Assembly (NCBI GenBank): GCA_030151165.1
Contig: JASLEM010000214.1
Span: 1 to 6,930, forward strand
Reading direction: 5' to 3'
Length of the DNA: 6,930 nucleotides
Source of the DNA: Burkholderiaceae bacterium
GTDB lineage: Bacteria; Pseudomonadota; Gammaproteobacteria; Burkholderiales; Burkholderiaceae
Within the stretch, counting starts at the first letter, position 1. Every line of letters starts with the position of its first letter. Below are positions 2,968-5,891 of the stretch, in pieces. The notes under the pieces were generated by a model. The model was given only the letters and a program-made list of their open reading frames with translations, made no database searches and had not been told where the DNA came from. The position numbers and the translations under genes were made by a program.

Positions 2968-3013
2968 AGATCCGCGGTCGGGTCTTCAACATCCGTCGAT
3001 GCATCAAAAAATA
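2931..3013 (+). repeat. Tail-plus-array repeat, copy 1, left part
   Basis: Bases 2931-2982 align without gaps to 5546-5597 with about 46 of 52 identities. The match spans the shared stop codon (2965-2967 here) and the following bases GAAGATCCGCGG. It continues into one 21-bp array unit (2983-3003, containing TTCAACATCCGTCGATG) and the A-rich loop of a hairpin (CATCAAAAAATA). The left hairpin arm is 2990-3002, and its partner arm now lies at 3458-3470 across the inserted element. Copy 2 at 5546-5755 has more tandem units. Confidence 0.85.
3006..3013. repeat. Left target-site duplication of the inserted element
   Basis: AAAAAATA here is repeated directly at 3449-3456. The match extends to 11 bases (CAAAAAATAGG at 3005-3015 and 3448-3458) because of shared edge bases, so the true duplication could be 8 to 10 bp. 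Confidence 0.7.
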
Positions 3014-3127
3014 GGGTCATCGCCGAACTGCGGGGGGCGCCTTGGAAACATCGCGCCCGAAACGCTCACCGACCTGTGCGCGGTGGTCGTCGGAGATTCC
3101 CTGCCCGGCAGTCGCATCCGTCACCCC

Positions 3128-3211
3128 TGTCATCCTGCGCGCAGTCGCAGGATCCACCCCCGCCGAGGCGTTTCCCCTGGGGTGGATTCTGCGACTCCGC
3201 GCAGAATGACA
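3128..3211. repeat. BIME-like inverted repeat pair 1
   Basis: Arms 3128-3160 and 3179-3211 are reverse complements at 30 of 33 positions, separated by 18 bases. Each arm also folds on itself: TCCTGCG/CGCAGGA in the left arm and TTCTGCG/CGCAGAA in the right. The C-G pair of one arm is replaced by T-A in the other, a compensatory change that supports a selected or structurally maintained hairpin. This resembles REP/BIME-type intergenic repeats. Confidence 0.7.
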
Positions 3212-3219
3212 TGTCACCG

Positions 3220-3360
3220 GTCATCCTGCGCGCAGTCACAGGATCCACCCCCGCCAAGGTCTTGCGCCCGGAGCCGCGCGCTCGGCAGCGCGCCCAAACG
3301 CGCCCGTCCTCATCGCGGCATCGCGGCCTGCGTGGATCCTGCGACGACGCGCAGGATGAC
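3220..3360. repeat. BIME-like inverted repeat pair 2
   Basis: Arms 3220-3248 and 3332-3360 are reverse complements at 26 of 29 positions, with a GC-rich spacer of about 83 bases. They belong to the same family as pair 1 (core TCATCCTGCGCG...CAGGATCCAC). The left arm has CACAGGA in place of CGCAGGA, which weakens its own small hairpin and suggests drift. Confidence 0.7.
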
Positions 3361-3448
3361 AGGCAAAGACATGAGCCTGCGGATGTCGGAAAACCAGTTC
3401 TCGAGCGCCGCAGGGGCTGGACTCTTCCCCGCGATTCGGCGATGAACC

Positions 3449-3456
3449 AAAAAATA
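3449..3456. repeat. Right target-site duplication of the inserted element
   Basis: AAAAAATA, the direct copy of 3006-3013, immediately follows the right terminal inverted repeat. Confidence 0.7.
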
Positions 3457-3476
3457 GGCATCGATGGATGCTGGAG
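3457..3476 (+). repeat. Tail-plus-array repeat, copy 1, right part (separated hairpin arm)
   Basis: GCATCGATGGATG (3458-3470) pairs with CATCCGTCGATGC (2990-3002) over 13 positions, with one G-T wobble. The following CTGGAGA matches the TTGGAGA that follows the intact hairpin at 5689-5710. This is therefore the far half of the array hairpin, displaced by the insertion at 3014-3448. The array similarity fades after about 3476. The remaining 75 bases up to the transporter stop show nothing I can name. Confidence 0.7.
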
Positions 3477-3551: not shown

Positions 3552-4523
3552 TCAGGCGGACGACGAGCGCGTCGCTCGGTCACGCGGCGCGCGAAGCCCG
3601 GGCTTTTTCGCTTCCTGGGTCGTCGGCTCCAGATCGGTCGCCGATCGAGCAGGCCAGCCCGCCCAGGCCGCGGACACGACGATCAGCGCGCCGCCAGCCC
3701 ATCCCGCCAGACCAAGCCGCTCCCCGAGCCACAGCGTGGCCACCAGGGCGCCGAACAGCGGCTCGCTGCCCATCAGCAACGCGACGCGGCTCGGTGAGCT
3801 GCGCACCGCGGCGTAGTTCTGCACGAAAAACGCGAACAAGGTGCAGGCCAGCACCAGCCACGCGATCGTGCCCCAGAACGCGGGCGCGGTCGGCCAGGCG
3901 GCCCAGCGGCCACGGCCCGCGAGCGTCGCCAGGGCCGCGGCGCCGACGGCGATCGCGCCGGCTTGCAACGCGGTCAGCGTCGCCGCCGGCATCGCCTGCA
4001 GGCCGGCCAGCCGGCGGGTCAGGCAGACCATGAGCGCGCGCAGCAGCGCGGCGGCCAGCATCAGCGCGTCGCCGCGGCCGATCGCGACATCGATCGGCGA
4101 GCCCGCCGCCAGCAATGCCGCGCCGAGTGCCGACAGGGCCGCCGCCGCGAACACGCCGCGATCGGGCCGGCGCCCGAACATCGCCCACTCGACCCACGGC
4201 GTCAACGCCACGCACAGGCTGATCAGGAACGCGGCGTTGCCGGCGCTGGTGAGCGTGACGCCGAAGGTCTCGCACACGAAGATCGCCAGCAGGTTCGCGC
4301 CCAGCAGGCCCGCCGAGGCGAGGCCGTCGCGGCCGTCGCGGCGCAGCAGGGGCTTCAGCGCAGGCAGCAGGATCAGGAACGTCAGCCCGAAGCGCAGCGC
4401 GATGAACTGCAGCACGGGCACCAGCAGCGTCGCCTGCTTGGCGAGCGCGTAGCTGCTGCCCCAGATCGCGGCCACCACCAGCAGCAGCAGGTCGGCGACA
4501 CTGCTCGTCTTCTTCGCATCCAT
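3552..4523 (-). CDS. EamA/DMT-superfamily inner-membrane transporter
   Basis: A 323-residue protein if started at the ATG at 4523 (MDAKKTSSVADLLL). An upstream in-frame ATG at 4562 would add 13 residues (MIPPPRFPWTRRP). I prefer the shorter form because family members usually begin just before the first membrane helix. Neither start has a strong ribosome binding site. The sequence shows about ten hydrophobic helices in two halves, the EamA duplication. AAIWGSSYALAK lies in helix 1, and SEPLFGALVATLWLGERLGLAGW is the typical motif before the last helices. The C-terminal 35 or so residues are polar and charged. Members export or exchange small metabolites such as amino acids, and the substrate here cannot be told. 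It is divergent from a LysR-type regulator 93 bp away, which commonly controls such a neighbour. No convincing terminator follows the stop. Confidence 0.9.
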   Translation of the reverse strand: MDAKKTSSVADLLLLVVAAIWGSSYALAKQATLLVPVLQFIALRFGLTFLILLPALKPLLRRDGRDGLASAGLLGANLLAIFVCETFGVTLTSAGNAAFLISLCVALTPWVEWAMFGRRPDRGVFAAAALSALGAALLAAGSPIDVAIGRGDALMLAAALLRALMVCLTRRLAGLQAMPAATLTALQAGAIAVGAAALATLAGRGRWAAWPTAPAFWGTIAWLVLACTLFAFFVQNYAAVRSSPSRVALLMGSEPLFGALVATLWLGERLGLAGWAGGALIVVSAAWAGWPARSATDLEPTTQEAKKPGLRAPRDRATRSSSA

Positions 4524-4616: not shown

Positions 4617-5582
4617 GTGGGAACGAAACCCTTCATCGACGTGCTGCCCGAGATGGTCGCGTTCGCGCGTGTCGCGGCGCTGGGCAGCTTCTCCGCGGCC
4701 GCCGCGCAGCTCGGGCTGACGCCGTCCGCGGTCAGCCGCCAGGTGACGCGGCTGGAAAAGACGCTCGGCGTGCAGCTGATCCAGCGCACCACGCGCCAGC
4801 TGCGCCTGACCGAGGCCGGGCTCGAGGCGTTCGCGCATTGCAGCGACCTCGTCGTCGCGGCGCAGGCCACCCTCGACCTGGCGCAACAACATGCGCGCGT
4901 TCCCCAAGGCCTCGTGAGGCTCAGCGCGCCGCGCGAGTTCGCGCGCAGCGTGCTGCATCCTCACCTGCTGACCTTTCTTCGCTGCTGGCCCGAGGTGGAC
5001 GTGCAGCTGATCGTCGAGGACCACGACATCGACCCGATCCGGGAGGGCGTCGACCTCGTCGTGCGCATCACCACGGACCCGCCGCCCGGGCTGGCCGCCC
5101 GCACGCTGATGGAGGTCGACCAGGTGCTGTGCGCGACACCGGATCACCTCGCGCGCGCCGGCGTGCCGGCGCATCCGCGCGACCTGCTCGCGCACCCCTG
5201 CTTGTATCTCGGCGAACGCGAACACGACAACCTGTGGCGCTTCCGGCGCGCCGATGACGAAGCGAGCGTGCGCGTGCGCGGCCGCTACGTCGCCAACCAT
5301 GCCGAGGTGCGCCTGGAAGGCGCGCTGGCCGGCCTCGGCGTCGCGTGCCTGCCCAGCTTCATCGCGGCACCGGCGTTGGACGATGGCCGACTCGTTCGCG
5401 TCCTCTCGGAGTGGGACTTCATCGCCCCCTACGGCGGCCGCGCACTGCTGATGTATCCGCCCAACCGCTTCCTGCTGCCCAAGTGCCGTGTGCTGATCGA
5501 TCACCTCGCGGACGCGTTGTCGATGCGACGAACGGCCGATCGGGCGCCGGCCGGGTCTGCGCCGGGCGCAGCGGCATCCTGA
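4617..5582 (+). CDS. LysR-type transcriptional regulator
   Basis: A 321-residue protein, close to the usual 300 or so. The winged helix-turn-helix lies at about residues 13-70, with the family signature GSFSAAAAQLGLTPSAVSRQV and then RTTRQLRLTEAG. The rest matches a periplasmic-binding-protein-like effector domain (VDVQLIVEDHDIDPIREGVDLVVRI, ATPDHLARAG, GLGVACLPSF). GTG at 4617 is chosen because AGGA precedes it by 10 bases. GTG 4641 and ATG 4653 are alternatives that would still keep the whole DNA-binding domain. It probably regulates the divergent transporter, its own gene, or both. The last residues (PAGSAPGAAAS) and the stop codon come from a repeat shared with the unrelated gene at 2440-2967, so the original protein probably ended near LADALSMRR. 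Confidence 0.9.
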   Translation: MGTKPFIDVLPEMVAFARVAALGSFSAAAAQLGLTPSAVSRQVTRLEKTLGVQLIQRTTRQLRLTEAGLEAFAHCSDLVVAAQATLDLAQQHARVPQGLVRLSAPREFARSVLHPHLLTFLRCWPEVDVQLIVEDHDIDPIREGVDLVVRITTDPPPGLAARTLMEVDQVLCATPDHLARAGVPAHPRDLLAHPCLYLGEREHDNLWRFRRADDEASVRVRGRYVANHAEVRLEGALAGLGVACLPSFIAAPALDDGRLVRVLSEWDFIAPYGGRALLMYPPNRFLLPKCRVLIDHLADALSMRRTADRAPAGSAPGAAAS

Positions 5583-5755
5583 AGATCCGCGGCCAGGTGT
5601 TGAACATCCGTCGAGAGGTGTTCAACATCCGGCGATGGGTGTCTGACATCCGACGACGGATGTTCGACTTCCGACGATGCATCAAAAAGATGCATCGTCG
5701 GATGTTGGAGATGGATCGACGGGTGTTCAACATGGATCGATGGATGTTGAACACC
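5546..5755 (+). repeat. Tail-plus-array repeat, copy 2: shared tail and eight and a half 21-bp tandem units
   Basis: Bases 5546-5597 match 2931-2982 and include the regulator stop codon (5580-5582). From 5577 the sequence runs in 21-bp steps: 5577, 5598, 5619, 5640, 5661, 5682, 5703, 5724 and a partial unit at 5745. The usual unit begins TGTTSAACATCC and continues RTCGATGGR. It is built from two short palindromes, TGTT-S-AACA and CCRTCGAYGG. Units 1, 2, 7 and 8 keep the first palindrome perfectly, and unit 3 reads TGTC-T-GACA, changed on both sides so that it still pairs. Bases 5756-5807 after this array are non-repetitive and unrecognised. Confidence 0.9.
5670..5702. other. Perfect 14-bp hairpin with A5 loop
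   Basis: Arms 5670-5683 and 5689-5702 pair at all 14 positions around a loop of AAAAA (5684-5688). It forms the centre of the array, about 90 bases after the regulator stop. There is no T-run after the stem, so it is not a standard intrinsic terminator. It could still shape the 3' end of the regulator mRNA. Confidence 0.85.
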
Positions 5756-5807
5756 CAAAACAGCAACCCGATTCAGCGGCACCGGGCTTCGGCACGGCCA
5801 ATTTGGA

Positions 5808-5891
5808 TGTTGGACATCCATCGATGGGTGTTCGACATCCTTCGATGCATCTTTTTGATGCATCGAGCGATGTTGGAGATGCAATTCGCGG
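5808..5891 (-). repeat. Second array block, four 21-bp units, hairpin in opposite orientation
   Basis: Units start at 5808, 5829, 5850 and 5871. The first has the perfect palindrome CCATCGATGG (5818-5827). The 23 bases at 5843-5865 are the exact reverse complement of 5675-5697, so this block is an inverted copy of the array core, separated from the first block by 52 non-repeat bases. Degenerate array-like sequence (GGAGATGGATGGG) runs to about 5902. From there to 6023 I see no confident promoter or other element apart from the ribosome binding site of the next gene. Confidence 0.85.
5842..5866. other. Perfect 10-bp hairpin with T5 loop
   Basis: TCGATGCATC (5842-5851) and GATGCATCGA (5857-5866) pair fully around TTTTT. 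It is the inverted counterpart of the A5-loop hairpin at 5670-5702. The T-run is in the loop and not after the stem, so it does not look like an intrinsic terminator. Confidence 0.85.

Follow-up and report, generated by a model that had tools for sequence, protein, structure and literature searches.

A Putative ISL3-Type Mini-Transposon in the A-Rich Loop of an Intergenic Palindrome from a Burkholderiaceae Bacterium

Insertion at Palindromes and Terminators

The insertion sequences ISPpu9, ISPpu10, and ISPa11 target REPs and are reported to be REP specific (PMC1525189). At the locus described here, a repeated intergenic palindrome has likewise been entered; in contrast to the REP-targeting elements, insertion into a palindrome is here an isolated instance, accounted for by an A-run. 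IS1272 of the IS1182 family inserts at terminator hairpins. It is reported to cut inside the hairpin and to remove some of it without duplicating the target (PMC4923244). IS1272 and the ISL3 relatives treated below are alike in inserting at intrinsic terminators, whereas the present element differs from IS1272 by an exact 8-bp duplication in an A/T run and by the presence of both hairpin arms. A clinical report describes a disrupted rRNA terminator at which an ISL3 element and an 8-bp duplication are present (PMC11702846). Insertion into palindromes and terminators is known for other families, and no priority is claimed for the ISL3 habit; a literature search by titles, abstracts, and terms, with subscription journals and ISfinder outside its scope, did not recognize ISL3 targeting of terminators and T-tracts or of A/T runs.

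The Element and Its Setting

The window, i.e., the whole stretch of DNA analyzed, comprises 6,930 nucleotides from a Burkholderiaceae bacterium (assembly GCA_030151165.1, contig JASLEM010000214.1); its genes and other features are given in Table 1. Among genomic sequences, the SMP-30 protein is matched most closely, at 71 to 72% identity, in an uncultured betaproteobacterium, a Burkholderiales bin, and Scleromatobacter humisilvae. The 175-aa protein has 39 homologues, of which 3 carry an organism name, always Burkholderiaceae bacterium. The 175-aa gene and the EamA frame are convergent, and the element is located in the stretch between their ends.

Table 1. Coordinates of genes, repeats, and parts of the element in the window
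Feature	Position	Strand	Basis or remark
ILVD_EDD dehydratase			Window gene; Pfam match
SMP-30/gluconolactonase			Window gene; Pfam match
175-aa protein	2440-2967 (stop 2965-2967)		Without Pfam match
EamA transporter	Frame ends at 3552	-	
LysR regulator			Window gene
Two additional frames			Without Pfam match
Split hairpin, left arm	2990-3002	+	Fold of joined flanks
8-bp target duplication AAAAAATA, left copy	3006-3013		
Putative ISL3-type MITE, 435 bp, without transposase gene	3014-3448		Ends, 8-bp duplication, relatives' ends, Pfam scan
Left terminal inverted repeat, GGGTCATCGCCGAACTGCGGGG	3014-3035	+	
Nested palindrome copies, GTCATCCTGCGCGC...GGATCC-like	3129-3155; 3184-3210; 3220-3246	+; -; +	
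Fourth nested GTCATCC palindrome copy	3334-3360	-	
Right terminal inverted repeat, GGTTCATCGCCGAATCGCGGGG (minus-strand reading)	3427-3448	-	
8-bp target duplication AAAAAATA, right copy	3449-3456		
Split hairpin, right arm	3458-3470	+	Fold of joined flanks
Intact paralogous hairpin, core CGATGCATCAAAAAGATGCATCG	5670-5702		Uninterrupted counterpart of the split hairpin
Second intact hairpin, same core	5845-5872		Reverse orientation to 5670-5702

Judged from its terminal and flanking bases, the most plausible reading of the element is that of a non-autonomous mini-transposon (MITE) whose ends are of the ISL3 family. These ends match at 19 of 22 positions, and the duplication flanking them is perfect (8/8); a separate repeat detection also returned the inverted ends (22 nt, 86% complementary). 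The target duplication of the ISL3 family is 8 bp long. The small transposon-like element proposed in the initial annotation is in this way upheld and can be placed, by its ends and duplication, as a probable ISL3-type MITE: it is short and noncoding, with inverted ends and a target duplication as in a MITE, and the terminal inverted repeats are ISL3-like. No Pfam family is found in the three long frames running through it. As it has no transposase gene, it is classed as ISL3 derived and not as an insertion sequence. The element itself is an ordinary, fresh example of an already known type.

The flanking identity runs two G's past the 8 bp, with AAAAAATAGG on either side. On the left side, the extra G's are assigned to the element interior because the ends of relatives place them there; the boundary rule in these relatives (GG start, CC end, 8-bp duplication) is the same as that in the window element. 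A scan of the window for position pairs 100 to 1500 bp apart with an exact 8-bp duplication and ends matching at ≥15 of 22 positions gives three pairs, namely, the element (19/22), 5684-5856 (20/22), which falls within an inverted array, and 4781-5003 (15/22), which sits at the threshold. There is next to no likelihood that the symmetry and the duplication arose by chance in ancestral sequence. In favor of such a reading, no empty site was seen; against it, the combination is rare in the window and multicopy relatives obey the same boundary rule.

The Split Hairpin

In the joined flanks, CATCCGTCGATGC and GCATCGATGGATG pair at 13 positions (12 Watson-Crick pairs and 1 G-T pair) around a 12-nt loop, ATCAAAAAATAG, which agrees with the hairpin that the initial annotation restored by deleting the element. 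The predicted fold contains an extra outer helix of 6 pairs, with the stem reaching outward to about 2983, and has a predicted RNA energy of -29.3 kcal/mol. Under equal scoring, 13/13 pairs are reached by 12 of 6830 window positions, which marks such pairing as rare.

The two intact hairpins have the common core CGATGCATC-AAAAA-GATGCATCG with a 5-nt loop. The split hairpin is related to the intact hairpin at 5670 to 5702 but, contrary to the initial annotation, not of the same design: the loop has 12 nt instead of 5 nt, the inner ATC/GAT pairs are lost, and the split hairpin is more decayed than both intact ones. On the minus strand, positions 3471 to 3458 followed by CTATTTTTTG can be read as a weak terminator-like hairpin of 5 pairs, a reading at chance level in this stretch (1 found versus 0.7 in shuffles). 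The 23-base hairpin core is absent from the 250 family genomes at ≤2 mismatches; at 3 mismatches, 4 of the 250 contain a single match each, regarded as chance. No 21-base hairpin core is found in viral contigs.

Copies of the Ends in Related Genomes

The left end was searched with ≤3 mismatches in genomes G001, G002, G003, and G006, the genus group of G003 (Scleromatobacter). It occurs 20 times in G006, once in G002, and in neither G001 nor G003; the reversed-pattern control has no match in G006 and a single one each in G001, G002, and G003. A broader end pattern yields 33 matches in G006 (control, 1) and 31 in G002 (control, 0). With a degenerate end pattern at ≤2 mismatches, 22 of 250 family genomes are matched, many of them by one match without an adjoining A/T run, which looks like chance. 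The exact left end was not found in genome contigs.

The ends in G006 and G002 pair into elements of 225 to 1008 bp, so that copies sharing the ends exist and the proposed refutation by a lack of other copies fails. Two G006 pairs have an 8/8 duplication, one of 1008 bp (AAAAAAGA; L102) and one of 225 bp (AATGAAAA; L104), and a 226-bp pair has 7/8. Among the 11 listed pairs including the window element, the duplication is 8/8 in 4 (window, L102, L104, and L121), 7/8 in 2, 6/8 in 3, and 5/8 in 2. This listing excludes by hand 15 lone ends without an adjoining A/T run (L120, L122 to L125, L127, L128, L131 to L134, and L136 to L139) as well as L147 to L158 (PF01610 matches). The multicopy non-autonomous elements of G006, such as L102 and L104, resemble the window element in their near-identical ends and A-rich 8-bp duplications and differ from it in their interiors, except for GTCATCC doublets, which are present in four G006 elements. 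A second copy of the 435-bp element itself was not seen in the related genomes, which carry its ends; in the five genomes compared, matches to its interior are confined to the nested GTCATCC palindromes. L102 was first read as an autonomous transposon because of its length, a reading that was rejected: its listed frames look like repeat read-through.

A protein search at an E value of 1e-60 detects no ISL3 transposase in G006. Since the multicopy relatives in this genome stand without the enzyme, it must be lost, unassembled, or different. The only PF01610 match in G006 falls in a fatty-acid desaturase (L149, 742 to 1965), whose C-terminal 150 residues match DDE_Tnp_ISL3 above the cutoff (36 bits); either the protein is a fusion with transposase ancestry or the match is an artifact of the profile. 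Similar weak matches occur in the other genomes searched for PF01610, among which L149 is the one that was checked.

Autonomous ISL3 Partners

The initial annotation had suggested looking for an autonomous element with the same ends, and such a partner, with closely similar ends, is present in G042. The 1320-bp copy L121 is flanked by the duplication CGAAAAAA and, unlike the window element, encodes a transposase, a 449-aa protein with the domains Zn_ribbon_ISL3, HTH_Tnp_ISL3, and DDE_Tnp_ISL3. The right end of this G042 copy (L121/L146/L254) matches the left end of the window element at 18 of 22 positions by hand count. Relatives of the L121 transposase occur in 10 of 399 family genomes at an E value of 1e-60. 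A second transposase query matches 2 of 369 class genomes at 1e-80 and 127 plasmid records at 1e-60; the best 60 of these 127 mostly carry an ISL3-family annotation, in some cases as ISRta1- or ISAeme19-like.

The Cupriavidus plasmid copies L271 and L272 have the end GGTTCTTCGCCGATCTGCGT, which matches the window left end at 16 of 20 positions (hand count), and the duplications TTTTTTTT and GAAAAAAA. The ISRta1-like L274 and the ISAeme19-like L277 (names from the records) have GG...CC ends beginning GGTTCTTCGC, as does the window element, and 8-bp duplications, CTTTTTCT and TAAAAAAA, inside A/T runs. They are about 1300 bp long with a transposase of ∼400 codons, in contrast to the 435 bp of the window element, which has repeats inside and no transposase.

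Out of 27 transposase-bearing loci, 15 have a usable duplication (≥6/8), which is 8/8 in 14 and 6/8 in one. The 12 unused loci are L255 and L256, which have both ends but no common duplication, L261 to L263, which have a single end, and L270 and L279 to L284. All 15 autonomous copies used have left ends beginning GGTTC(A/T)TC. L257 (1489 to 2790, G248) and L264 (1486 to 2800, G010) apparently occupy one target sequence beside a T-run, either by inheritance or by repeated insertion, leaving 14 distinct targets among the 15.

It is very improbable that the element comes from a different family that also makes 8-bp duplications and bears ISL3-like ends by chance. Such a reading draws on the fact that no transposase is encoded, the family being assigned from ends and duplication alone; it is opposed by the 18/22 match to the G042 right end, the GGTTC(A/T)TC start of the 15 autonomous copies, and the agreement of the 8-bp duplications in A/T runs.

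Target Choice

The autonomous copies point to A or T runs as targets. A run of ≥5 is overlapped by 14 of the 15 copies with a duplication of ≥6/8; the exception, L278, has the AT-rich target ATATTGAT with no run. The flanks in G006 and G002 show the same preference: 8-mers holding A6/T6 make up 13/28 in G006 and 8/28 in G002, in total 21/56, compared to 131 of 1,199,520 genomic 8-mers (0.01%) in 1.2 Mb of these two genomes (980 kb and 220 kb). For A4/T4, the counts are 23/28 and 13/28, compared to 3660 of 1,199,520. This flank count applied no hand exclusions and left out 5 of 33 G006 matches and 8 of 31 G002 matches; it is the fair target count because the hand exclusion in the pair listing leaned on the flank. 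In G002, A4/T4 runs are missing from 15 of 28 flanks, and 7 of the 28 rest on ends with 3 to 4 mismatches; with ends at ≤2 mismatches, A6/T6 is found in 7/21 instead of 8/28.

The initial annotation had left two readings of the target side by side, cruciform or hairpin DNA or simply A-runs, and the data support the latter. Recognition of hairpin or cruciform DNA with insertion into the loop, in the manner of palindrome-seeking insertion sequences, is highly improbable. Its appeal lies in the position of the element exactly in the loop of the restored hairpin, with 13 or more pairs, and in the precedent of insertion sequences that target palindromic repeats (PMC1525189). Set against this are the other copies: paired arms of ≥9/10 around the duplicated 8-mer are found in 0 of 22 others with a duplication of ≥6/8, compared to 10 paired arm positions at the window element, so that loop targeting gains no support from them. 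The 22 consist of 18 copies, including 3 of the 9 non-window MITE-like pairs (L102, L104, and L105, with 8/8 or 7/8), and 4 added MITE-like pairs with 6/8 or 7/8; the two pairs with a 5/8 duplication likewise have no hairpin around the target. Of 20,000 random positions, 873 reach 9 or 10 paired arm positions, and none of 38 control A6/T6 runs lies in such a hairpin loop. Relatives have A/T runs in common and not loops, and two intact hairpins with A-rich loops remain without an element in the window. The three signals earlier described as independent, i.e., end symmetry, target duplication, and restored hairpin, do agree on the boundaries of the element. As arguments for hairpin targeting they are not independent, since the A-run favored by the relatives is provided by the A-rich loop itself.

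The relatives suggest that the element aims for A or T runs, often those that end genes, and not for hairpin loops. Very probably, an ISL3-ended MITE was mobilized in trans and entered an A-run with an 8-bp stagger, splitting the hairpin as a side effect. In such a mechanism, an ISL3 transposase acting in trans would have moved the 435-bp non-autonomous element and joined it to the target with an 8-bp stagger; AAAAAATA is duplicated at the site. The target would have been chosen among A or T runs, for which the preference is seen in relatives of this group. In GC-rich hosts, runs of this kind are infrequent and in many cases form the T-tract of a terminator. Here, the run belongs to the A-rich loop of an intergenic palindrome that lies between convergent genes, and the loop would have been entered for this A-run.

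The A/T-run habit of the ISL3 group is the most useful by-product of the analysis. The loop-seeking reading is replaced by a testable rule, namely, that this ISL3-type group enters A/T runs. If the rule holds widely, it predicts landing sites and transcripts that lose or gain a terminator, and a simple insertion assay can address it.

Terminators as Possible Targets

A stem of ≥6 pairs adjoins 17 of 24 element T-runs of ≥5 compared to 57 of the 148 T-runs used as controls (Fisher P = 0.004). With runs of ≥4, the values are 21/28 element flanks and about 22% of 692 controls, and 9 of the 15 autonomous copies adjoin a stem of ≥6 pairs on the terminator side. These values favor recognition of the whole intrinsic terminator by the transposase (hairpin plus T-tract or a paused transcription complex) and not just of the A/T run, a reading that is nevertheless rather doubtful. 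For runs of ≥6, the excess shrinks to 16/21 versus 18/38 (P = 0.053); among control T-runs of ≥7, 8 of 11 already adjoin stems of ≥6. Moreover, such a stem is missing at L254, L269, L274, and L278 and comprises only 5 pairs at L257 and L264; the controls were drawn from two genomes, and the flank statistics ignore relatedness. As long T-runs generally adjoin terminator-like hairpins, there is at most a weak sign of a structural need in addition to the run, and the run accounts for most of the terminator association. A first adjacency count (perfect stem of ≥7) gave 12/51 versus 84/2214 matched-8-mer controls and was discarded, as its 400-kb control contained too few long runs; this count alone left out 7 singles with AT-poor flanks.

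For the group as a whole, we lean slightly towards a use of terminator T-tracts as a safe harbor by proteobacterial ISL3 elements and their MITEs. The transposase would read the A/T run, perhaps helped by a hairpin or a stalled polymerase, and palindromes with A-rich loops would be accidental targets under the same rule.

Nested and Neighboring Repeats

The window comprises three levels: a palindromic intergenic repeat, the ISL3-type MITE splitting it, and a palindromic repeat within the MITE. The latter, of 27 nt, is present in four copies, the first two inverted and 55 nt apart. Doublets with a spacing of 53 to 56 nt are also found inside the G006 elements L107, L110, L114, and L118. The nested repeat also occurs at 17 loci in G001, G002, and G003, with an element end in none of the 17 stretches examined. 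These palindromes, located at 3126 to 3363 in the window, often form inverted doublets about 55 nt apart, both in ISL3-type MITEs and away from ends in the related genomes; G002 has 39 matches of the element, in both orientations. The best Rfam match, mir-1289 at 3126 to 3216, is subthreshold (35.8 bits versus a gathering score of 66 bits) and is taken as a resemblance to the nested repeat and not as a microRNA.

Further repeats are found near the hairpins. An 82-nt repeat at 2918 to 2999 is 85% identical to 5533 to 5614 and covers the final codons, the stop, and the onset of the 3' region in two unrelated genes. Both products, the 175-aa protein and the LysR regulator, consequently end in the tail GSAPGAAAS. 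The tail of the 175-aa protein is rich in Ala and Pro and varies among its 39 homologues; none of the 39 has the exact tail GSAPGAAAS, some have a short Ala-rich end, and one ends in SAGAAS.

A 312-bp array has no match in 250 family genomes, a weak negative for this type of search, and neither the array nor the 435-bp element has a match among plasmids in a distant-mode search. The inverted arrays at 5580 to 5755 and 5804 to 5881 consist of 21-nt units (consensus like ACATCCGACGACGGATGTTCG) around an AAAAA loop. In 15 genomes, the 21-nt array unit has a single match with 3 mismatches, in G003. Frames running through the inverted arrays read as heptad-like peptides.
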